This document shows, in pieces, positions 2,682 through 13,895 of a stretch of 64,000 nucleotides of DNA. Source of the DNA: Bacillota bacterium (GTDB taxonomy: Bacteria; Bacillota; Sulfobacillia; Sulfobacillales; Sulfobacillaceae); NCBI GenBank assembly GCA_021784595.1, contig JAJYHT010000080.1, positions 62,001 to 126,000 of the forward strand, read 5' to 3'. The stretch's first letter is position 1. Each line of letters starts with the position of its first letter. Under the pieces are notes generated by a model. The model did not search any database. It saw nothing but the letters and a program-made list of their open reading frames with translations, and had not been told where the DNA came from. Made by a program: the position numbers and the translations under genes.

Positions 2682-2861
2682 ATGGCCGAGTCTAAACTCC
2701 ACACACGACGGCTGACCCAATGGAAAATAGGAATTCTGGTATCGGGCGGTAAGGACATTGCTCAAGAGGCGCATGACCATGCGCTCAAGATTATTGTCGA
2801 CTGGGTCCGAAGTCGACTAGCGGAAGAGTCCGCTGACCGGGACAGGGCCTGGGAGTCATGA
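2682..2861 (+). CDS. Small protein translationally coupled to the recombinase
   Basis: A 59-residue basic/acidic protein with no family I recognise. ATG 2682 has AGGAGGGG (2669-2676) at 5-nt spacing, an excellent initiation site. The stop overlaps the recombinase start (ATGA at 2858-2861), so the two are co-translated. The C-terminal half (residues ~25-55) is predicted helical (HDHALKIIVDWVRSRLAEES). Its placement suggests an accessory or directionality factor for the recombinase; this is inference from position only. Confidence 0.6.
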   Translation: MAESKLHTRRLTQWKIGILVSGGKDIAQEAHDHALKIIVDWVRSRLAEESADRDRAWES

Positions 2862-4369
2862 ACGCAGGCATTTATCTTCGGGTGTCAAGTGAGGATCAGG
2901 CTCAGCACGGGTATAGTCTTATGGCTCAACGGGACTCTTGTGTGGCCAAGGCGCGAGCGTTAGGAGCCGTGGAGGTGAGTGAATTTGCCGATGAAGGCGT
3001 TCCTGGCACCCTGCTGGACCGGCCCGGTCTAGGCGCCTTGCGGCAAGCTGTGGCGCGTCGAGCCGTGGATATCGTCGTGATCTATGACCCGGACCGCTTC
3101 GCCCGGTCGTTGGCTCACCAGCTGTTGGTAACAGAAGAGATCGAGCGGGCTGGAGTGCGGTTGGAATTTGTCAATTTTGAGTGGCAGAATACCCCCGAAG
3201 GCAAATTGTTTTATGCGATGCGAGGCGCCTTTGCAGAATATGAACGGGAAAAAATCCGCATCCGGACGAGTACTGGCCGCATCCAAAAGGCCCGGCAAGG
3301 GAAACTGCCGATGGTCGTGGAACCGTATGGCTATCGATATGATGCTCAACAATCTCTGTTAGTGGTCGATCCATATCAATCGGAGATTGTTCGGCGAATT
3401 TTTTCTGAAATTGTAGACCATGGTGAGGGACTCAACGGTATTGCAAAACTGTTGACCCGAGACCGCGTGCCGACTCAAAAAGGCCATAGCATATGGCATC
3501 GTCAGGTGGTGCGGCAAATCGCCAGGAATCCGGTTTATATGGGAATATTTTACGCAAACCGGTTGAATACGGCAGGGATGGGGATAAACCGCTTTCGCTC
3601 GGTAGGAGACAAAGTGCGACCCTCAATTCGTCCTCGTGAAGAATGGATTCCGATTCGGGTACCTCCTATTGTGGATCCCCAGACATGGCATCGGGCTCAG
3701 ATGTTGATGGATCAACGAGCAGCAGAATGGCAGCGACAGCGGCACGGGACGACATACCTATTGTCTGGATTGCTGCGGTGCGAGATCTGCGGGCAAACCA
3801 TGACGGGGCGTCAACGCAAGAACTGGGGACGGCTGCTAATCGAATATAGCTGCCGGAAAAACACTGCCGGAGACCGTGCTCCGGGCTGTGCCCGCCGTCC
3901 CCGGGTGGATGCCGGCCAGGTGGAGTCCATCGTGTGGAACCGCGTGATGGATTGGATTGACGATCCAAAGCGGTTTGGCGAAATGTTTTGGGCATCTGAT
4001 GCATTGGAGAGATTGAACAGGGAGACCGAAACGGCACAAATTAACTTGGAGAGGATTTTAGCGGGACAACGCAACTTGTTGAATGTCTTGGCAGGAGGAA
4101 TTGGAGATTCCGACATCGTGGTCCAAAGACTAAATGCATTGCAAGAACGCGAGCAAGCGGTTATGGGACAACTTCAGCAGTTAAAGCATGCCCACGGAGA
4201 AATAGTCGATTTGAGGCTCTCTCAAGATCCTGAATTTAGCAGGCGGTGGTTGCGCAGAGCGCGGCAAGAGCTGCCCCGTTCCTTTCGCTATACGATAGTG
4301 CATGCGTTAGTGCAGGAAATATTAATTGGCGATGAAACGATGACGATCCTTCCTCGCACATCAAACTAA
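2858..4369 (+). CDS. Large serine recombinase, SpoIVCA-like
   Basis: Site-specific DNA integrase/excisionase of 503 residues. The N-terminal resolvase domain has the catalytic Ser10 in YLRVSSEDQ and the conserved YDPDRFARS and EYEREKIRIRTSTGR segments. Then come the recombinase domain (WHRQVVRQIARNPVYMG), a zinc ribbon with cysteines near 308, 311, 332 and 344, a coiled coil (~375-440) and a C-terminal tail. Length, WHRQVVRQI and the LSGLLRCEICGQTMTG ribbon closely recall SpoIVCA, which excises the skin element from sigK in Bacillus subtilis; that comparison is from memory. The sigK 3' fragment at 13.5 kb lies downstream in the matching orientation. No phage structural genes are nearby. Start ATG 2858 overlaps the preceding stop. 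Confidence 0.9.
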   Translation: MNAGIYLRVSSEDQAQHGYSLMAQRDSCVAKARALGAVEVSEFADEGVPGTLLDRPGLGALRQAVARRAVDIVVIYDPDRFARSLAHQLLVTEEIERAGVRLEFVNFEWQNTPEGKLFYAMRGAFAEYEREKIRIRTSTGRIQKARQGKLPMVVEPYGYRYDAQQSLLVVDPYQSEIVRRIFSEIVDHGEGLNGIAKLLTRDRVPTQKGHSIWHRQVVRQIARNPVYMGIFYANRLNTAGMGINRFRSVGDKVRPSIRPREEWIPIRVPPIVDPQTWHRAQMLMDQRAAEWQRQRHGTTYLLSGLLRCEICGQTMTGRQRKNWGRLLIEYSCRKNTAGDRAPGCARRPRVDAGQVESIVWNRVMDWIDDPKRFGEMFWASDALERLNRETETAQINLERILAGQRNLLNVLAGGIGDSDIVVQRLNALQEREQAVMGQLQQLKHAHGEIVDLRLSQDPEFSRRWLRRARQELPRSFRYTIVHALVQEILIGDETMTILPRTSN

Positions 4370-4626: not shown

Positions 4627-5292
4627 GTGTCAAAAACTGATGGAGTTTATCAGGAATTACGTCGCCGCATTTTAACTGGGGAATTAATCGCCGGCTATCG
4701 CCTGGTGATCGATGCCTTGGCCAGAGAATTTGGCGTAAGCCCTATTCCTGTGCGAGAAGCCATCCGACGGCTGGAAGCAGAAGACTTGGTGGATTTCCAT
4801 CCCAATGTGGGGGCTCAAGTAAGCCGCATTGACGAACAGACCTATGAAGAAGTGTTGTCGGTGAAAGCACGATTGGAGGGATGGGCAACGTCCTTGGCCG
4901 CACCGTATTTGACTGATGACGACTATCAAGCATTGCGCTTGACGGCGCAGAAAATGGACCAGGCATTGGATCGCGCGGACTTGGGGATGTACGCGGAATT
5001 GAATCGGACGTTTCATAAAATCATTCGCAGCCGCTGCCCCAACCGCTTTCTGGTAGAACAAATTGCCACTTGTGCCGCGAAACTGGACCGGGTGCGAGCC
5101 AATATGTTCACCTTGGTGCCGGAACGATCACGCAGCTCGTTGCAAGAACACTACCATATTTTGCAGTCTCTGGTGGAAAAGGCGCCGCGAGAGGTATTGG
5201 AGCGCATTGTCGAGGACCACCAGCTCAAAACCTGGGAGGCCTATCGCGAGCACCGTCGGCACCGCCACGCGACTTCGGCGATACAGGAATAG
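4627..5292 (+). CDS. GntR-family (FadR subfamily) transcriptional regulator
   Basis: A 221-residue regulator. The N-terminal winged helix shows the GntR pattern (VYQELRRRILTGEL, LAREFGVSPIPVREAIRRLEAEDLV, residues ~7-55). The C-terminal helical FCD-type domain (~80-210) has the metal/ligand pattern of the FadR group, including NRTFHKII and EHYHILQSLV. GTG 4627 is preceded by AAGGAG (4611-4616); an ATG at 4620 is out of frame. As first gene of the aromatic operon it probably represses it and responds to the substrate or a ring-cleavage intermediate. Confidence 0.88.
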   Translation: MSKTDGVYQELRRRILTGELIAGYRLVIDALAREFGVSPIPVREAIRRLEAEDLVDFHPNVGAQVSRIDEQTYEEVLSVKARLEGWATSLAAPYLTDDDYQALRLTAQKMDQALDRADLGMYAELNRTFHKIIRSRCPNRFLVEQIATCAAKLDRVRANMFTLVPERSRSSLQEHYHILQSLVEKAPREVLERIVEDHQLKTWEAYREHRRHRHATSAIQE

Positions 5293-5350
5293 CTGTGGAC
5301 GGAAAAGTTGCCAAGAAGAGAAAAACATGTTTTTCGAGGGAGTGAAAGCG

Positions 5351-6268
5351 ATGAAAGCTATCCATGAACGCTTACGAGGATCTATTACGCCGGTGGTCAC
5401 TCCATTTACCGATGACAACCAGGTAGACCATGAGACACTGAAAAGTCTTATAAACTGGCAAATTCGTGAAGGCAGTCATGGGATTTCGGTGACGGGAACC
5501 ACAGGCGAACCCAGTTCTTTGACGTTGGAAGAAAGAGAGGCGATTTTTAAGACCACCGTGTCTGCCGTGGCGGGCAGGGTTCCCGTGCTCTTAGGAAGTG
5601 GCAGCACCAATGTGGATGAAACATTGCGGTTAACCCATAGCGCCGAGATGTTGGGGGCCGATGCGGTCCTCATTATCGTGCCTTACTACAATCGCCCGTC
5701 ACAAGAAGGGCTATATCAATATTTTACGACGGTCGCCCGGTCCACCGCCTTGCCGGTGGTGATCTACAACATTCCCGGACGTACCGCCACCAATATAGAA
5801 CCCGCCACAGTCAAGAGGATCTGCCACACTGCCAACAACGTAATCGGAATAAAAGAGTCTAACCGTGATTTCGAGCAGGTGACAAAAGTCCTGCATCTGA
5901 TGGGTCGCAACTTTTTAGTCTACTCAGGCATTGAAGCCTTGTGCTTTCCCATGTTGGCCTTGGGCGGGGCTGGACACATTAGCGCGACGGCCAATATCTT
6001 ACCCCGAGAGGTTGCCGATTTGTATAACTTGGCAGCCCACGGTGAATGGGAAAAAGCGCGCGAACTCCACTATCACCTCTATCCCTTGAATGACGCGCTG
6101 TTTTGGGAAACCAATCCGGGTCCGCTTAAAGCCGCATTGGGCATGATGGACAAGATTCGGCCTCATCTGAGATTGCCCTTGGTTCCAGTATCTTCTGAAC
6201 ACTACCAAGGTCTGGCAAAAATTTTGCACCAATACGGGGTACTGGCGAAAGAAGGGGGCACTGAGTAA
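5351..6268 (+). CDS. DHDPS/DapA-family aldolase in aromatic-degradation operon
   Basis: Class I lyase of the dihydrodipicolinate synthase/N-acetylneuraminate lyase family, 305 residues, TIM barrel. The Schiff-base lysine is K168 (GIKES); T50-T51 (TGTTGE), Y139 and R144 (YNIPGR) match the DHDPS catalytic set, so true DHDPS activity cannot be excluded. Its place between the GntR regulator and the FAH gene suggests it cleaves the hydroxy-oxo acid at the end of the meta pathway, a role filled by HpaI elsewhere. ATG 5351 is chosen because GAGGGAG (5336-5342) lies 8 nt before it; ATG 5327 is possible. The stop overlaps the next start (TAATG). Confidence 0.85.
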   Translation: MKAIHERLRGSITPVVTPFTDDNQVDHETLKSLINWQIREGSHGISVTGTTGEPSSLTLEEREAIFKTTVSAVAGRVPVLLGSGSTNVDETLRLTHSAEMLGADAVLIIVPYYNRPSQEGLYQYFTTVARSTALPVVIYNIPGRTATNIEPATVKRICHTANNVIGIKESNRDFEQVTKVLHLMGRNFLVYSGIEALCFPMLALGGAGHISATANILPREVADLYNLAAHGEWEKARELHYHLYPLNDALFWETNPGPLKAALGMMDKIRPHLRLPLVPVSSEHYQGLAKILHQYGVLAKEGGTE

Positions 6269-7020
6269 TGAGGTTAGCGCGAATTGCGGTTGAAGGACGA
6301 ATTCATGTAGCACAGGTGATCGACGATCTTTTAGTGACCGCCGACCACCGTCGATTTGCATTTCATCAAGTCCATTGGCTGGCGCCGATTGAACCGCGCA
6401 ATATTATTGGTTTGGCACTAAATTATGGAGGTCACGCGGCAGAATTGGGATTGGAAGAACCAGGCGAGCCCGTGTTGTTCTTTAAGCCGACCTCTTCGGT
6501 GACAGGACACCAGGCTCCAGTGCGATATCCCCGGGGGGCTACCCATTGTCACTATGAAACCGAAGTGGCTGTGGTGATTGGCCAAGCTTGCCGAAATGTT
6601 CATTCCGAACACGCGCTGGATTATGTAATGGGATATACCATTGCCAATGACTTTACCTGCCGAGACTATATTCGCAATACATTTCGGCCACCCGTGCGAG
6701 CCAAGGGATTTGACAGCTTTTGTCCGTTGGGACCGGTTTTGGTGACACCAGATGAAGTGGGCGATCCAATGCGTCTGGCAATCACCACCAAGGTGAATGG
6801 CGAGTTGCGCCAACAAGGCCACACCGACCACTTGACCTATTCGATTTCAGAAATCATTGCCTATTTGTCATCATTTATGACCCTGGCTCCGGGTGATGTC
6901 ATTTTGACCGGTACGCCGGATGGCATCTCTCCCGTGTTTCCAGGCGACACCATGGAGTGTGCCATTGAAAAACTGGGAGTACTAGTAAACCCAGTGGTCA
7001 AGGAAGATGATCATTCATGA
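6268..7020 (+). CDS. FAH-family isomerase/decarboxylase (HpaG/HpcE-like)
   Basis: Fumarylacetoacetate hydrolase-family enzyme of 250 residues, a single catalytic domain. The metal ligands are visible as E97 and E99 (HYETE) and D128 (ANDFTCRD), with the conserved LTGTPDGI loop near the C-terminus. In homoprotocatechuate meta cleavage this family carries out decarboxylation of the dicarboxylated oxo-dienoate and isomerisation of its product. Enteric HpaG has two such domains; here there is one, so one of the two activities may be absent or shared. Starts at ATG 6268, sharing one base with the aldolase stop. Confidence 0.85.
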   Translation: MRLARIAVEGRIHVAQVIDDLLVTADHRRFAFHQVHWLAPIEPRNIIGLALNYGGHAAELGLEEPGEPVLFFKPTSSVTGHQAPVRYPRGATHCHYETEVAVVIGQACRNVHSEHALDYVMGYTIANDFTCRDYIRNTFRPPVRAKGFDSFCPLGPVLVTPDEVGDPMRLAITTKVNGELRQQGHTDHLTYSISEIIAYLSSFMTLAPGDVILTGTPDGISPVFPGDTMECAIEKLGVLVNPVVKEDDHS

Positions 7021-7141
7021 TTTTCCGTTTTCGGTATCGGCGGGGGCGGAACTGACACGTGTGAGAGTGTTGCGCACGCTATCAGTCAAGCGATGGGTGG
7101 CTGAGCACAGTGAACATGGCTGGGAGTTTTACACAGAATGA
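7007..7141 (+). CDS. Possible small ORF with in-frame TGA before a further 13 codons
   Basis: ATG 7007 lies inside the end of the FAH gene and opens 44 codons ending in VAEHSEHGWEFYTE at TGA 7139-7141; the frame then continues 13 sense codons to a second TGA at 7181-7183. AAGGA precedes the ATG at short spacing. The sequence looks protein-like but matches no family I know. It may be a small operon protein, the broken tail of a former gene, or non-coding. Confidence 0.25.
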   Translation: MIIHDFPFSVSAGAELTRVRVLRTLSVKRWVAEHSEHGWEFYTE

Positions 7142-7223
7142 AAACCGGTCCAGTTGGCGAAGCGAATCATCAACTTATTATGAGAGCGCATTTTAACTGA
7201 CTAAGTCACGAGGAGGACTATTT

Positions 7224-8705
7224 ATGGGAATTCGTACAGGGCAACAGTATCTTGACAACTTGGACAGCACCGCGCGCGATCTGTGGATTGATGGAGAGGC
7301 AGTTAAAGGTAAAATTACTGAGCACCCGGCCTTCCGCAATGTTGCCCGCGCGGTGGCGCACTTATACGATATGCAGCATGACCCCGCCCTGCAATCGGAG
7401 ATGACCTATTCGTCTCCAGCGACGGGGAATTTGGTCGGTCTCTCGTTCTTGCAACCTCACACCAAAGAAGACCTGACCCGGCGACGGGCTATGATGCAAC
7501 AATGGGCGCGCTATGCCCACGGCATGATGGGGAGAGCCCCAGATTATCTCAATAGTGAGCTGATGGCGATTGCCGCCGCCGCTCCCTTTTTTGGAGAAAA
7601 GGGTTCCCGTTATGCGGAAAATGTTCGGAGTTACTATGAGTATGTACGGGAACACGATCTCTGCTTAACCCATACACTAATCCTACCACAGGCGAATCGG
7701 GCCCTTTCGGCCAGTCAGCAGGCGGATCCTTACTTGGCAGCTCGGGTGGTGGAAAAGACCGCTGCCGGCGTCATTGTCCGAGGGGCTCGAATGCTGGCCA
7801 CTTTGCCGTTGGCTGATGAAATTTTGGTCTTTCCATCCACGGTGATTCGCAATACCGAGGAGGACCGTCCCTATGCTTTTGCCTTCGCTCTGCCGTTGTC
7901 AACCCCAGGTCTGCGCTTCATTTGCCGGGAGACCTTTGACTATGGCAAATCGCACTTTGACCATCCGCTGGGCTCTCGCTTTGAAGAAATGGATGCGGTG
8001 GTGGTGTTTCATGACGTCTTGGTTCCCTGGGAGCGGGTTTTTGTGCTGGAAGATGGAGAGCGGTGCAACAAACTCTATGCCGATACCGATGCTACTGTCC
8101 ATATGACCCATCAGGTCATTGTGAAAAATGTGGCCAAAGCGGAATTCATTTTAGGTGTGGCCAGTTTGGTTGTGGATACCATTGGAATTGAACAGTTCCA
8201 GCACGTGCAGGAAAAAATTGCAGAAGTAGTGATTGCTATGGAGACCATGAAGGCCTTTTTAGTAGCCAGCGAAGCCAATGCTAAATTAAACCGATGGGGC
8301 ATTATGACCCCAGACTGGACACCACTGAATATTGCGCGTAACACGTTTCCCAAAGTGTATCCTCGATTGGTGGAAATTGTGCAGCAACTGGCAGCTGGAG
8401 GCTTGATGGCGATCCCCTCCGAGAAAGACTTTCAAAGTGAACTGCGCCCGGACATTGACCGCTTCTACCAAGCCAAAAATACCAGCGCACTGGATCGCAC
8501 ACGCCTGTTTCGATTAGCTTGGGATGCTGCCGTATCCACCTTTGGCAGTCGGCAGGTCCTCTATGAGCGATTCTTTTTTGGCGACCCGGTCCGGATGGCC
8601 GGTGCCCTGTATAACAGTTATGACAAGGAGCCAGCTAAACAACTGATTCGTGAACTTTTGAACGAAACCGCGGATCCTCTGTTGCAACAGGAGGCCCATT
8701 TATGA
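7224..8705 (+). CDS. hpaB: 4-hydroxyphenylacetate 3-monooxygenase, oxygenase component (HpaB family)
   Basis: FADH2-dependent aromatic hydroxylase of 493 residues, the usual length of the HpaB/PheA1 group with an acyl-CoA-dehydrogenase-like fold. Recognisable stretches are MGIRTGQQYLDNL at the N-terminus, the LTHTLILPQANR segment (~residues 150-162) and the long helical C-terminal domain. It needs reduced flavin from the HpaC-type reductase encoded two genes downstream. GAGGAGGA precedes ATG 7224, and the stop overlaps the dioxygenase start (ATGA). The substrate could also be phenol or a related phenol; the extradiol dioxygenase and FAH neighbours favour 4-hydroxyphenylacetate. Confidence 0.9.
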   Translation: MGIRTGQQYLDNLDSTARDLWIDGEAVKGKITEHPAFRNVARAVAHLYDMQHDPALQSEMTYSSPATGNLVGLSFLQPHTKEDLTRRRAMMQQWARYAHGMMGRAPDYLNSELMAIAAAAPFFGEKGSRYAENVRSYYEYVREHDLCLTHTLILPQANRALSASQQADPYLAARVVEKTAAGVIVRGARMLATLPLADEILVFPSTVIRNTEEDRPYAFAFALPLSTPGLRFICRETFDYGKSHFDHPLGSRFEEMDAVVVFHDVLVPWERVFVLEDGERCNKLYADTDATVHMTHQVIVKNVAKAEFILGVASLVVDTIGIEQFQHVQEKIAEVVIAMETMKAFLVASEANAKLNRWGIMTPDWTPLNIARNTFPKVYPRLVEIVQQLAAGGLMAIPSEKDFQSELRPDIDRFYQAKNTSALDRTRLFRLAWDAAVSTFGSRQVLYERFFFGDPVRMAGALYNSYDKEPAKQLIRELLNETADPLLQQEAHL

Positions 8706-9694
8706 ATGGCAAAGAATTCAATGTACTGCGCACGCATCATGTCGAGTACATCGTGACCGATCTAGCCCGTGCCATGGCGTTTTACGTGGATGCGGTGGGC
8801 TTTTCTGTGACGGACCGGGACGTGGGTCTGGCATATCTGCGTGGGCTGGAAGACCGTACCCACCACAACCTGATATTGCGGCAGGGCAAAGAACCGGGCA
8901 TTGCTCATGTGGGCTTTCGGGTGGCTTCAGAAAGTGATCTGGATGCGATGGAACAATATTTAAGCCAACTAGGGATTGCCAACCACTGGGAAACGAAGGC
9001 GGAACGCGGGTTGGGCCGTTCGTTGCGAGCCTTGGACCCGTTCGGATTTCCCATTGAATTTTTCTATGAGGTGGAACAGGTGCCGTGGTTGTTGCAACGA
9101 TTTGAACAATATCGCGGAGCCGAGGTGATGCGGCTGGACCATATCAACTACATCACTCCGAAGGTTCAAGAGGCAGCTCAGTGGTATCAAGACCATTTTG
9201 GGTTTCAGTTAAGCGAATATACGGTTAGCGTCGAAAACGGGCGCGACCGCATTTGGGGTGCGTGGCTCCATCGTAAGCAAACATCGCATGATCTGGCGAT
9301 TTCTAATGGGAAGGGTCCACGCTTTCATCACGCATCCTTTATCGCCTCGTCCAAGAACCAGATCTTAGCGGTTGCAGATCGCTTGGCGGCCATGGGCTAT
9401 GTGGACAGCATCGAACGCGGTCCGGGCCGCCATGGGACTACCAACGCGTTCTTCCTATATCTAAGGGACCCGGACGGAAACCGGATTGAACTCTTTACCG
9501 GAGATTACTTGTTGGCAGACCCAGATTGGGAGCCCATTCGATGGGACCTGGAGGACCCCCAAAGACAGACTTTTTGGGGTGCGCCCGCCCCTAAGCGCTG
9601 GTTCGATGAGTCCATGGTGGCGTTTGACTGGAGCGGCAATCCCCAGCCGACGGAAAACCCCATATTGCCTGACCGGCCCATTATGGTGGATTAG
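8702..9694 (+). CDS. hpaD: Type I extradiol ring-cleavage dioxygenase (homoprotocatechuate 2,3-dioxygenase-like)
   Basis: Fe(II)/Mn(II) ring-cleaving dioxygenase of 330 residues with two vicinal-oxygen-chelate domains. The metal triad is visible in the C-terminal domain: H147 (RLDHIN), H210 (FHHASF) and E263 (NRIELFTG); the 53-residue spacing between the last two equals that of Brevibacterium homoprotocatechuate 2,3-dioxygenase as I recall it. It would open the ring of the catechol made by HpaB/HpaC. CAGGAGG precedes ATG 8702, which overlaps the hpaB stop. A catechol 2,3-dioxygenase specificity is the alternative. Confidence 0.88.
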   Translation: MNGKEFNVLRTHHVEYIVTDLARAMAFYVDAVGFSVTDRDVGLAYLRGLEDRTHHNLILRQGKEPGIAHVGFRVASESDLDAMEQYLSQLGIANHWETKAERGLGRSLRALDPFGFPIEFFYEVEQVPWLLQRFEQYRGAEVMRLDHINYITPKVQEAAQWYQDHFGFQLSEYTVSVENGRDRIWGAWLHRKQTSHDLAISNGKGPRFHHASFIASSKNQILAVADRLAAMGYVDSIERGPGRHGTTNAFFLYLRDPDGNRIELFTGDYLLADPDWEPIRWDLEDPQRQTFWGAPAPKRWFDESMVAFDWSGNPQPTENPILPDRPIMVD

Positions 9695-9731
9695 ACAGCC
9701 TGACGCTAGCAGCGAGCAAGGGGGTAGCATT

Positions 9732-10262
9732 ATGAGTGAATTCATTCAACGGCAGAGGGCATTTCGAAGCGCATGCGGAAAATTTGCGACCGGAATCACG
9801 GTGGTTATGGCCAAACGAGACTTAAAAATTCATGGAATGACCGCCAATGCCTTTATGTCTGTCTCTCTGGACCCGTTGCTGGTGGCAGTGTCCGTGAGTA
9901 AGTCTAGCCAAATGCACAAATATTTGGAACCATCTGATGCGCTGTTTACAATCAGCATTTTGCACTCCGATCAGCAAAACGTCTCAGAAATATTTGGCAG
10001 GCCGCACCATCATCCTGGCGCGCAGGTCAGGCTGGATTCGATAGAAGGAGGTTTTCCAGTGGTTCATGATGCTGCCGCCTGGTTTTTGTGCGAGAAAGAC
10101 CAGGGAATTGATGCCGGTGATCATACGATCATGGTCGGCCGGATCCATGACTTTGGGGAAAGGGAGCACCATAACCCCCTCATATTTTACCGAGGACAGT
10201 ATTTTTCTCGTCTAGAAGTGTGCCAAGATGACATCAGCGATTATTTCTTGCTAGAACAGTGA
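9732..10262 (+). CDS. hpaC: Flavin reductase component of the aromatic monooxygenase (HpaC family)
   Basis: NAD(P)H:flavin oxidoreductase of 176 residues with the flavin-reductase-like split-barrel fold: FATGITVVMA (~residues 19-28), the flavin-contact segment GMTANAFMSVSLDPLLVAVSV and a C-terminal LIFYRGQYFS. It supplies FADH2 to HpaB. ATG 9732 with AAGGGGG upstream is chosen; the frame extends left into hpaD but that part is its antiregister. It is the last gene of the operon; no genes for the CHMS dehydrogenase, isomerase or hydratase of the full pathway follow. Confidence 0.9.
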   Translation: MSEFIQRQRAFRSACGKFATGITVVMAKRDLKIHGMTANAFMSVSLDPLLVAVSVSKSSQMHKYLEPSDALFTISILHSDQQNVSEIFGRPHHHPGAQVRLDSIEGGFPVVHDAAAWFLCEKDQGIDAGDHTIMVGRIHDFGEREHHNPLIFYRGQYFSRLEVCQDDISDYFLLEQ

Positions 10263-10812: not shown

Positions 10813-11439
10813 GTGGCGTTTTCTGAGATTTGGCTGGCGTGTCTGGAGCAAGCATGGAAAGCCTATTGCCAGGGGTCGGTCCCTGTGGGTGCAGTTTGGG
10901 TTGATGCCGAAGGGCACGTGCGCTTACGTGGCCGCAATCGTATTCATGAATCTCTAGCCGAACCCCCGCATCTTGCTGGCAACCGATTGGCGCATGCCGA
11001 AATGAATGTCCTGGTTCAAGTGCCGCCCGACGACTATTTCAGCATGGCAACCGGGATTCTGTATTCAACACTAGAACCGTGTCCACTCTGCATGGGGGCA
11101 ATCGTCATGAGTGGCGTTCGCCAAGTCTATTATGGGGCTCGAGATCGGGAAGCAGGTGCCACCGCTCTGCTGCAAGCTACCCCATATGTTGCGCGCAAGC
11201 AGATACAAGCTATCGGCCCAGAGCCGGAAATCCAGTCAGTTTCATTGGTGTTGTTGACAGATCGCCTGTTGCGGTTGGACAGTCCACGTACTCCTGCTTT
11301 TATCCAGGCGTTCCAAGCAGATGATCCGTTGGCAGTCGCCTTAGCTCAAGTGTGGTATCGAGAAGATTATCTGCAAAGAGCAGCTCGGCAGCAATGGCCA
11401 GTTCAGCAAGTGATTGAAGGCATTGTGAAAGCCATATAA
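10813..11439 (+). CDS. Nucleoside/tRNA deaminase (CMP/dCMP deaminase family)
   Basis: Zinc-dependent deaminase of 208 residues. The N-terminal ~130 residues carry the catalytic HAE motif (LAHAEMNVL) and the zinc cysteines in EPCPLCMGAI. The C-terminal ~75 residues are an extension absent from typical TadA (about 150 residues), so the substrate may be a free base or nucleoside rather than tRNA adenosine. GTG 10813 has AAGGGGG upstream. No operon partner. Confidence 0.75.
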   Translation: MAFSEIWLACLEQAWKAYCQGSVPVGAVWVDAEGHVRLRGRNRIHESLAEPPHLAGNRLAHAEMNVLVQVPPDDYFSMATGILYSTLEPCPLCMGAIVMSGVRQVYYGARDREAGATALLQATPYVARKQIQAIGPEPEIQSVSLVLLTDRLLRLDSPRTPAFIQAFQADDPLAVALAQVWYREDYLQRAARQQWPVQQVIEGIVKAI

Positions 11440-11537: not shown

Positions 11538-13181
11538 TTACAATAGCTCCAATCGACCTTTACCCAAATGATAGGCGATGCCATCGAACTGTTCACGAAA
11601 CCATCGATCATGCGTGACCACAACGACTGAGCCGCGAAACGTCTGTAAAGCTTTTTCTAATTCATCCAGAAGATCGGGTGCCAAATGATTAGTGAGCTCG
11701 TCAAGAAGTAGGCACGAACTCTCGGACGCAATTAGGCGGGCCCATTCGAGCCGTCTGCGTTGACCCTCAGATAGGGCATTGACACGATGATGCAGTTGGT
11801 CAGGTTTAAATAACCCAGTCGATAAGAGTTGGTCGCGCAAGTCATCAGGGTGGCCCGCCCGGTCATGGCTGTAGGCTTGGATCACCGTCTCGCCATGCAA
11901 TGACCCCGCTTCCTGCCCGAAATAAGCGATGGGCACTGTGTGGCGCACAGAGCCCGCGATGGGAGACAACTCCCCATTGAGGATACGCAGCAACGTGGAT
12001 TTTCCCGCTCCGTTGTATCCTTGTATAAGGATGCGATCACGAGGATTTACTGCTAATGATACGTCACGGAGTATGGGCTCCGTATTGACGTAGAAAAATT
12101 CAATGTGTTCGGCTGCAATATGAGGTTCCTGGGAATCAATCGGCGGTCGAAGATCTATGGCAAACTGCCATGGTTCGGGTGGTTTAGCGACGCGCTGTGA
12201 CCGAAACCGTCGCAGTGTCTGTTCTGTTGCACGGATGCGTTGGGAAGAAGACTGTTGAACCCATTCGCCTTTTCCTTTGTAGTGCGCTTTATCATTGTCG
12301 CGTGGCGCTCGCTGGTGCCCGATGCGATAGGGTATTTCATGCAGGCGCTTCACCAAGCGCCTGTCTTCCTCACCTTCTCTCCGATACTGGTCTTGCCACC
12401 GCTGAAGCTCTTCGCAACGGTGTAATTGATATTGCTGATAGTTGCCCGGATAGAATTGCCCTTGGTGGTTTGAACCATCCAGTGCCAAAATTTCCGTGGC
12501 TATCCGATTCAAAAAGGCTCTGTCATGCGAAGCAAACAGCAAACCGCCTGTGTAGGTCAATAAGTATTCCTCCAGCCACTGGGCGGCGTTGTCGGCCAAG
12601 TGGTTAGTAGGTTCGTCCAAAACCAATAGCGGAGGGATATCGATGAGCAGTGTCGCGAGCCCGACTCGGGTTCGCTCTCCACCGGACAAAGACATAAGAG
12701 GGCGAGTCAAAGAGCCCCGTTGCAAGCCAAGTCCTTGCAATATTATAGGAATACGACGCATCAGGTCATGTCCGCCACGTAGCTCAAAACGCTCGTATAG
12801 CATTGCATAGTGATGCAATAGGTTCTCCAGCTGTTCACCACCTGTGCATTGAGCCATCTGGGTTGATAGCTGTTCAAGTTGATGGCTCAGAGAATAGAGT
12901 TCTCGTTGGGAAGCTTGCAGCCACTCCATTACAGTAACGGTGGGGGTGGCATCGGGTAACCTTTGCGCAAGATAGCCGATGGTCAGGGATGGAGAATAAT
13001 CCAGCACGCCGTTGTCGGGCGTTAGGACCCCCGCCATAATTTCAAGTAGGGTGCTTTTTCCGGAACCATTGTCCCCCACTACACCAAGCCGATCACCTGA
13101 GTGGATGATTAACGAAAGATCTTGCAACACGGTCATGTCACCGTAACTTTTTGCCAAGTTATGACCAGCGACCAATATCAT
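11538..13181 (-). CDS. ABC-F ATPase, probable antibiotic-resistance ribosome protection factor
   Basis: Soluble protein of 547 residues with two fused ATPase domains and no membrane part. Site 1: GDNGSGKST, LSGGERTRVGLA, LLVLDEPTNHL. Site 2: GYNGAGKST, LSEGQRRRLEWARL, LLLDELTNHL, where the usual proline after the Walker B glutamate is Leu. The charged interdomain linker (~245-320) is the segment that reaches the peptidyl-transferase centre in ABC-F proteins. Upstream lie a promoter, a 10-codon leader peptide with a strong ribosome site and an intrinsic terminator, the layout of drug-induced attenuation known for Vga/Msr/VmlR-type genes. GGGAGG lies 9 nt before ATG 13181. The drug class cannot be read from sequence. 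Confidence 0.9.
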   Translation of the reverse strand: MILVAGHNLAKSYGDMTVLQDLSLIIHSGDRLGVVGDNGSGKSTLLEIMAGVLTPDNGVLDYSPSLTIGYLAQRLPDATPTVTVMEWLQASQRELYSLSHQLEQLSTQMAQCTGGEQLENLLHHYAMLYERFELRGGHDLMRRIPIILQGLGLQRGSLTRPLMSLSGGERTRVGLATLLIDIPPLLVLDEPTNHLADNAAQWLEEYLLTYTGGLLFASHDRAFLNRIATEILALDGSNHQGQFYPGNYQQYQLHRCEELQRWQDQYRREGEEDRRLVKRLHEIPYRIGHQRAPRDNDKAHYKGKGEWVQQSSSQRIRATEQTLRRFRSQRVAKPPEPWQFAIDLRPPIDSQEPHIAAEHIEFFYVNTEPILRDVSLAVNPRDRILIQGYNGAGKSTLLRILNGELSPIAGSVRHTVPIAYFGQEAGSLHGETVIQAYSHDRAGHPDDLRDQLLSTGLFKPDQLHHRVNALSEGQRRRLEWARLIASESSCLLLDELTNHLAPDLLDELEKALQTFRGSVVVVTHDRWFREQFDGIAYHLGKGRLELL

Positions 13182-13219
13182 CTGCCTACGCCTCCCATCA
13201 CTTATGGAACGGCTGGCGC

Positions 13220-13248
13220 AAAAAAACCGCCAGCAATAGTGGCTGGCG
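13220..13248 (-). terminator. Attenuator terminator in the ABC-F leader
   Basis: On the minus strand, stem CGCCAGC (13248-13242) and GCTGGCG (13234-13228) with a 7-nt loop is followed after one C/G step by seven T (13226-13220). A third copy, GCGCCAGCC (13219-13211), just past the T-tract can pair with the same middle arm, giving an alternative hairpin that excludes the terminator. Located between the leader peptide and the ABC-F start. Confidence 0.8.
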
Positions 13249-13294
13249 ACGGAACCCTATGCAATGGGAAGGCTGGGATGCCATGCGTCACCAG

Positions 13295-13327
13295 TTAGAA
13301 TGCTGTAGTGCTAATGCTGATGACCAT
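13295..13327 (-). CDS. Leader peptide of the ABC-F gene (MVISISTTAF)
   Basis: Ten codons from ATG 13327 to TAA 13297-13295. GGAGGTG (13342-13336) is 8 nt upstream, a near-ideal ribosome site, and the -10 TATAAT lies only ~16 nt further up. The peptide is followed by a switchable terminator and then the ABC-F gene. It is most likely a sensor ORF on which a drug-bound ribosome stalls; the regulatory role is inferred from layout. Confidence 0.7.
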   Translation of the reverse strand: MVISISTTAF

Positions 13328-13357
13328 TGGCTTTTCACCTCCGAATTTGCCATCTCT

Positions 13358-13387
13358 ATTATAACGGCATCCACTATCGCAGAGCAA
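13358..13387 (-). promoter_or_regulatory. Promoter of the ABC-F leader
   Basis: On the minus strand a consensus -10 TATAAT (13363-13358) is preceded by a weak -35 TTGCTC (13387-13382) at 18 bp. Transcription would begin near 13351, just before the leader peptide's ribosome site. The 13182-13526 stretch thus holds the ABC-F leader on the minus strand; 13390-13510 shows no gene. Confidence 0.65.
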
Positions 13388-13526
13388 TTCTCTGTCGCCC
13401 ACGCAAGATCAGCGATTGACCCTGACCCAATTCATTGGAACGGGTAGTCAACTTCACCTTATGGGATAAGGACAACAGATCTGGAAGAAATTTACGGGGT
13501 GTCATGTCATCAAGCACGAAGTCTTA

Positions 13527-13895
13527 ATGCATCTGCGCAACCAGAAGAAAATCAACCGCGAGGTAAGTCTTTATACACCGATCGGAGTAGACCGGGAAGG
13601 CAACGAAATCATGTTGATGGATGTCTTGGCCTCGGGCGACGAAGTACCAGATACCGTGGAAGTCGCCATGATTATGCAATGGGTTACGGACTTTGTCAGG
13701 ACGCTAACCTCCAAAGAGAAGCTGGTGTTAAATCTGCGATTTGGGTTGAATGGGTATTCCGTGCGTCTCACCCAACGGGAAATTGCTCAGAAACTGGGCA
13801 TCTCCCGCAGCTATGTCTCACGTATTGAGAAACACGCGGTAGAAAAAATATTGGATGCGTTGAGCGATGATACACATCACGTGCGCCGCCGCTAA
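13527..13895 (+). pseudogene. sigK: 3' half of sigK (SpoIIIC-like fragment), gene probably split by a skin-like element
   Basis: Encodes the C-terminal half of the late mother-cell sigma factor sigma-K: the VSLYTPIGVDREGNEI segment of region 3, and region 4 with the helix-turn-helix TQREIAQKLGISRSYVSRIE. Homology begins at codons HEVLMHLR (13515 onward), the equivalent of NEILMHLR, the point where the skin element interrupts sigK in Bacillus subtilis; upstream codons show no sigma region 2 and hit a stop at about 13466. ATG 13527 has no Shine-Dalgarno sequence, so the fragment is unlikely to be translated alone. It is probably not decayed but silent until DNA excision joins it to the 5' half, which is outside this window. 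Alternative: an abandoned duplicate. Confidence 0.8.

Follow-up and report, generated by a model that had tools for sequence, protein, structure and literature searches.

The 206 bases that precede the ABC-F gene of the window analyzed here (the whole stretch of DNA, 64 kb in length) very probably constitute a ribosome-mediated transcription attenuator of a gene encoding an ABC-F ribosome-protection protein. Three lines of evidence support ribosome-mediated attenuation well: the anatomy of the leader, its computed switching, and a second, independent leader in another genus that follows the same design. The mechanism is of an already known kind. An earlier note on this DNA had proposed drug-sensing attenuation, with the leader peptide MVISISTTAF as a possible mark of a new inducer specificity. 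The first part of this proposal holds up on the evidence just named; the second is not supported, as the peptide of the relative differs and the feature common to both leaders is a start-proximal switch.

Minus-strand positions 13387-13182 contain a promoter, a strong ribosome binding site, a leader frame, an intrinsic terminator, a third complementary segment and then the start of the ABC-F gene, and each of these elements is found where the earlier note had placed it. The features, as seen in the sequence or, for segments 1 to 3 and the Shine-Dalgarno hairpin, as obtained from computed folds, are as follows.

13387-13382, minus strand: -35-like hexamer TTGCTC, poor, with three of six consensus matches
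13363-13358, minus strand: -10 box TATAAT, perfect, after an 18-nt spacer
13342-13336, minus strand: Shine-Dalgarno sequence of the leader frame, GGAGGTG
13331-13317, minus strand: segment 1, GCCAAUGGUCAUCAG, spanning the leader start codon, predicted 5' arm of the anti-antiterminator
13327-13295, minus strand: predicted leader frame ATG...TAA, 10 codons, MVISISTTAF
13294-13280, minus strand: segment 2, CUGGUGACGCAUGGC, predicted partner of segment 1 or, through its first 9 nt, of the terminator 5' arm
13251-13243, minus strand: segment 3, CGUCGCCAG, terminator 5' arm, also used by the predicted antiterminator
13250-13220, minus strand: intrinsic terminator, a 25-nt stem-loop (13250-13226) and a U7 tract (13226-13220)
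13234-13227, minus strand: terminator 3' arm, GCUGGCGG
13218-13212, minus strand: segment 5, CGCCAGC, which repeats the terminator 5' arm
13219-13191, minus strand: hairpin region predicted to pair the ABC-F Shine-Dalgarno sequence GGGAGG (13196-13191)
11538-13181, minus strand: ABC-F protein P0001, 547 amino acids, ATG at 13181, from profile, sequence and structure comparison

The leader frame reads ATG GTC ATC AGC ATT AGC ACT ACA GCA TTC TAA. Right after its stop codon begins CUGGUGACG (13294-13286), the third segment of the earlier note, which pairs with the terminator 5' arm at nine of nine positions, including one G-U. What makes the switch work is a further pairing, absent from that description, between segments 1 and 2 over the leader start codon; in the free RNA segment 1 is computed to sequester CUGGUGACG, and its pairing probability is 1.00 when no ribosome is present.

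While the total folding energy of the leader is unremarkable (z of -1.3 to -1.5), the combination of helices is not what shuffled sequences provide. With the leader start and the terminator kept fixed and the intervening stretch shuffled, none of 1000 dinucleotide shuffles gave both competing helices at the observed strength. A ribosome footprint covering 15 nt on each side of the start codon raises the computed probability that the terminator 5' arm pairs with RNA upstream of it from 0.22 to 0.98, and not one shuffle in 500 switched as strongly. Eight terminator-like sites occur in the 64-kb window and only that of the ABC-F leader comes with such a kit, scoring 14.7 where the next best reaches 7.5. 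An Rfam scan of the window gave no family at gathering score, and none matches the leader.

An antiterminator that excludes the terminator and depends on the position of the ribosome is obtained in silico. The folding of the two conformers suggested in the earlier note gives a flip from anti-antiterminator to antiterminator with a ribosome on codons 1-7: with the P site on any of these codons and the terminator 3' arm not yet made, the probability of the antiterminator is 0.85-0.98, and it is 0.00 without a ribosome or with one on codons 8-11. The leader stop codon is thus outside the effective range, and a ribosome that completes the peptide therefore favors termination. Once the terminator is complete, equilibrium clearly favors the antiterminator only for codons 1 and 2 (0.98 and 0.84); its probability is nearly balanced at codon 3 (0.43) and amounts to 0.02-0.40 over codons 4-7. 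Since stalls on codons 4-7 favor the terminator at equilibrium, the antiterminator must form first, that is, control must be kinetic, and because the terminator also wins at equilibrium in the relative described below, the attenuator model as a whole leans on kinetics.

We propose the following sequence of events. In the absence of drug, segment 1 would pair with segment 2 over the leader start codon as an anti-antiterminator or, alternatively, a ribosome completing the 10-codon frame would cover segment 2; by either route the terminator would form and transcription would end before the ABC-F gene. If an antibiotic held the ribosome early in the frame, on codons 1-7 in this leader or 1-4 in that of the relative, segment 1 would be covered and segment 2 left free to capture the terminator 5' arm before the 3' arm exists, leading to read-through and production of the ABC-F protein. 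The inducers are likely drugs that arrest the ribosome during initiation (lincosamides, streptogramin A, pleuromutilins), and not drugs that require a special peptide. We infer translation of the peptide, drug-induced stalling during its synthesis, transcript ends at the terminator and protection of ribosomes by the protein. A translational layer may come in addition from the hairpin that covers the ABC-F Shine-Dalgarno sequence, for which the computed unpaired probability in the free RNA is 0.30. Segment 5 could pair with the freed terminator 3' arm and thereby open this hairpin; constrained folding gives -51.2 vs -52.3 kcal/mol for the two states, with neither clearly favored.

The ABC-F gene is found in two of 154 genomes of the class. 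A first-pass contig scan with the single ABC-F protein as query found no relative, and the gene is absent from the congeners G003 and G004; the other carrier, G012, belongs to a different genus of the same family, and its protein is 50% identical. The leader of this relative (locus L003, about 3370-3140, minus strand) has TTGCTCT at the same place, a -10 box TACAAT, a Shine-Dalgarno sequence, an 11-bp helix of segments 1 and 2 over the start codon, a terminator with a U7 tract and an antiterminator, built from different bases. The third arm is present in the relative in the form of other bases that pair in the same manner. A ribosome on the start codon moves the computed switch from 0.28 to 1.00, a change equaled by 1 of 500 shuffles, and the switch is active for codons 1-4 and partly for codon 5; at equilibrium the terminator wins, the antiterminator being ahead only as long as the terminator 3' arm has yet to be transcribed. 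The upstream open reading frame (uORF) comprises 20 codons, (M)INTREIFQAGGSPDALPIG, and begins GTG ATC AAC ACA CGC. The leader peptide is not conserved because this uORF encodes a different, longer product, and MVISISTTAF, whose retention in relatives had been put forward as a check, is thus not kept. Segment 2 lies at a roughly maintained distance from the start codon, 28 and 34 nt in the two leaders. In this pair the design is conserved while the peptide is not, an argument that amounts to one comparison because there are only two leaders among the 154 genomes.

A match in G279 (L004, 38%) was inspected and has no leader of this kind, its product being a general ABC-F protein with a C-terminal extension. 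In a wider set of 80 ABC-F relatives, scanned by pattern in the region before the gene, 10 had a terminator there, with uORF candidates in L006 and L020. In L006 (1-2000, a Litorilinea MAG) another TlrC-like ABC-F gene has a strong terminator 128-161 nt upstream, possibly a further attenuator in another phylum.

The ABC-F protein combines two ABC domains and an ABC-F linker in a single chain that lacks a membrane part, and the Walker motifs and both catalytic Glu residues are present. The second Walker B, at residue 496, reads DELTNHL where DEPTNHL is usual, with the catalytic Glu kept. The best curated model is TlrC/CarA/OleB/SrmB (NF000171), matched over the full length with 433.3 bits where its cut-off is 800; NF000355, the model for resistance ABC-F proteins in general, gives 361 bits against a cut-off of 380, so that neither resistance cut-off is reached. 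The interdomain linker is extended, a trait common to TlrC-type proteins and missing in most others compared; in the predicted structure (mean pLDDT 90) it forms two long helices, at residues 248-290 and 298-328. Identity to actinobacterial TlrC-type members is 37-40%, with plasmid-borne Streptomyces ones at about 38-40%. The solved structures of PoxtA, VmlR2 and EttA match about equally, and structure comparison does not separate resistance from housekeeping (EttA-type) ABC-F proteins. As judged by profile scores the protein is nearest the TlrC/CarA/OleB/SrmB group, under that model's cut-off, and a function in antibiotic resistance is likely.

Several other explanations must be considered. 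Macrolides stall ribosomes on the MsrDL or ErmCL peptides. By analogy, the nascent MVISISTTAF chain might stall the ribosome late with a particular drug, its sequence encoding the specificity for the inducer. TlrC, from the nearest protein group, protects from macrolides (PMC10201436), and on MsrDL (MYLIFM), a peptide likewise short and hydrophobic, the stall occurs at the stop codon (PMC10314930). Against this, segment 2 is covered once the ribosome reaches codons 8-11, which abolishes the computed antiterminator, and the peptide is not retained in the relative; we regard a peptide-coded sensor as improbable, with the qualification that peptide-dependent stalls specifically on codons 3-7 may occur. 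Since conservation extends to the architecture but not to the peptide, a vmlR-type attenuator that senses start-proximal stalling, rather than a peptide-coded sensor of a new inducer, is the most likely reading.

Somewhat less improbable, though still unlikely, is that the attenuator is real and the ABC-F protein an EttA-like translation factor, the signal then being slow initiation or starvation with no antibiotic involved. Bit scores under the resistance-model cut-offs and structural matches that do not divide resistance from EttA-type proteins would fit such a role, but the best model, at 433 bits, is that of a producer self-resistance group whose extended linker the protein shares, and a gene that is rare (2 of 154 genomes) and carried as cargo of an element does not resemble a housekeeping factor. 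That the leader is nothing but an intrinsic terminator beside a small frame that arose by chance, lowering basal ABC-F expression without drug sensing, we consider very improbable: the folding energy is indeed ordinary and short frames bearing a Shine-Dalgarno sequence are common, yet the joint helices and the switch were matched by 0 of 1000 and 0 of 500 shuffles, respectively, and recur with other bases in another genus.

The leader lies next to one half of a split sigK gene, and the features that define the intervening element are as follows.

13527-13895, plus strand: C-terminal half of sigK, the leader's right-hand neighbor
13518-13519, plus strand: right end of the element, GA, from joining of the flanks
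2858-4369, plus strand: large serine recombinase of the element, with Resolvase, Recombinase and Zn-ribbon domains
G000:C12:61038: left end of the element, about 960 bases to the left of the window
G000:C12:60687-61067: N-terminal half of sigK, to the left of the window, whose first base is C12:62001

The element is 14,480 bp (14.5 kb) long, and joining its flanks at the common GA gives ...CARCIENEVLMHLRNQ..., an intact sigK frame as in G006, a member of another genus in which the gene is uninterrupted. As in skin-like elements, sigK is in two parts, a recombinase lies inside and the flanks restore one intact frame. The recombinase is 58% identical to that adjoining a split sigK in G004, and sister species carry 5.2-kb elements at the same point of sigK without the ABC-F gene. 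The ABC-F gene and its leader, lying within this element, are thus cargo at its right end, with the predicted promoter about 130 bp from the junction. It is, in our estimate, slightly better than an even bet that an antibiotic-inducible ABC-F gene with a complete attenuator is cargo of a developmentally excised sigK element, which would tie resistance to the completion of sporulation. A literature search for ABC-F together with sigK returned nothing relevant, which does not by itself prove absence.

The element carries other genes as well. Positions 4627-10262 hold a GntR-type regulator, a DHDPS-like protein, an FAA hydrolase, an HpaB-type 4-hydroxyphenylacetate hydroxylase, a glyoxalase/dioxygenase-superfamily protein and a probable flavin reductase (the latter by eye), and the region looks like an aromatic-degradation cluster. 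A BacA/UppP-type gene (bacitracin resistance family) is found at 65-907, adjoined by a SurE gene at 1020-1817. At 10813-11439 there is a long (208 aa) tadA-like deaminase, whose best match in G004 lies in two frames; the idea that this is the essential tadA residing on an excisable element was rejected, a second, shorter tadA-like gene being located at G000:C10:31717-32046.

With these data an independent lineage, contributing two divergent leaders, joins the known drug-sensing ABC-F attenuators, and the conserved trait, the spacing between start codon and switch segment, can be told apart from the peptide, which is not conserved. This argues that the uORF of such attenuators reports the position at which the ribosome stops and not the peptide that is made. 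Besides the arsenic operon of B. subtilis skin, the element context suggests a possible entry route of such genes into spore-formers.

In B. subtilis skin the resistance cargo is the arsenic (ars) operon (PMC12607644). The element described here likewise is a recombinase element that splits sigK and carries probable resistance cargo, ABC-F in place of ars; it differs in being 14.5 kb long, in that the genes examined are not phage-like and in having ABC-F and aromatic-degradation genes instead of ars. With the TlrC/CarA/OleB/SrmB proteins (NF000171) the ABC-F protein shares the best-scoring model over its full length and the extended linker, whereas its 433 bits lie below the cut-off of 800 and identity to the actinobacterial members is 37-40%.

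Ribosome-mediated attenuation has been described as common for ABC-F resistance genes (PMC12421871, PMC10201436, PMC8546547). In Streptomyces coelicolor, tiaA and are5sc are preceded by a uORF and a terminator/antiterminator; their leaders respond to lincosamides, streptogramin A and pleuromutilins through stalls at the start codon, and tiaAL has 9 codons (PMC12421871). The present leader similarly places a short uORF and a terminator/antiterminator before an ABC-F gene, but the peptides differ, the tiaA/are5sc proteins are actinobacterial ARE5 and their uORF ribosome-binding sites overlap the antiterminator hairpins, unlike the situation here. The closest parallel in design is B. subtilis vmlR, with a proven arrangement of an anti-antiterminator with the uORF MIN, an antiterminator, a terminator and a Shine-Dalgarno hairpin, and induction by start-stalling drugs (PMC9226507). 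Here too an anti-antiterminator is predicted over the uORF start, followed by antiterminator, terminator and a hairpin over the Shine-Dalgarno sequence of the gene, and the uORF of the relative even starts GUG AUC AAC, which reads (f)M-I-N like the MIN uORF of vmlR. In contrast to the 3 codons of vmlR there are 10 here and 20 in the relative, the leader here is without an Rfam match and the protein is nearer the TlrC-type group than VmlR. Since the vmlR uORF variants MDN and MDK are as effective as MIN, with MRK less so (PMC9226507), peptide identity counts little for stalls of the lincosamide, streptogramin A and pleuromutilin type. In both systems a start-proximal stall opens the switch, as computed here and proven for vmlR.
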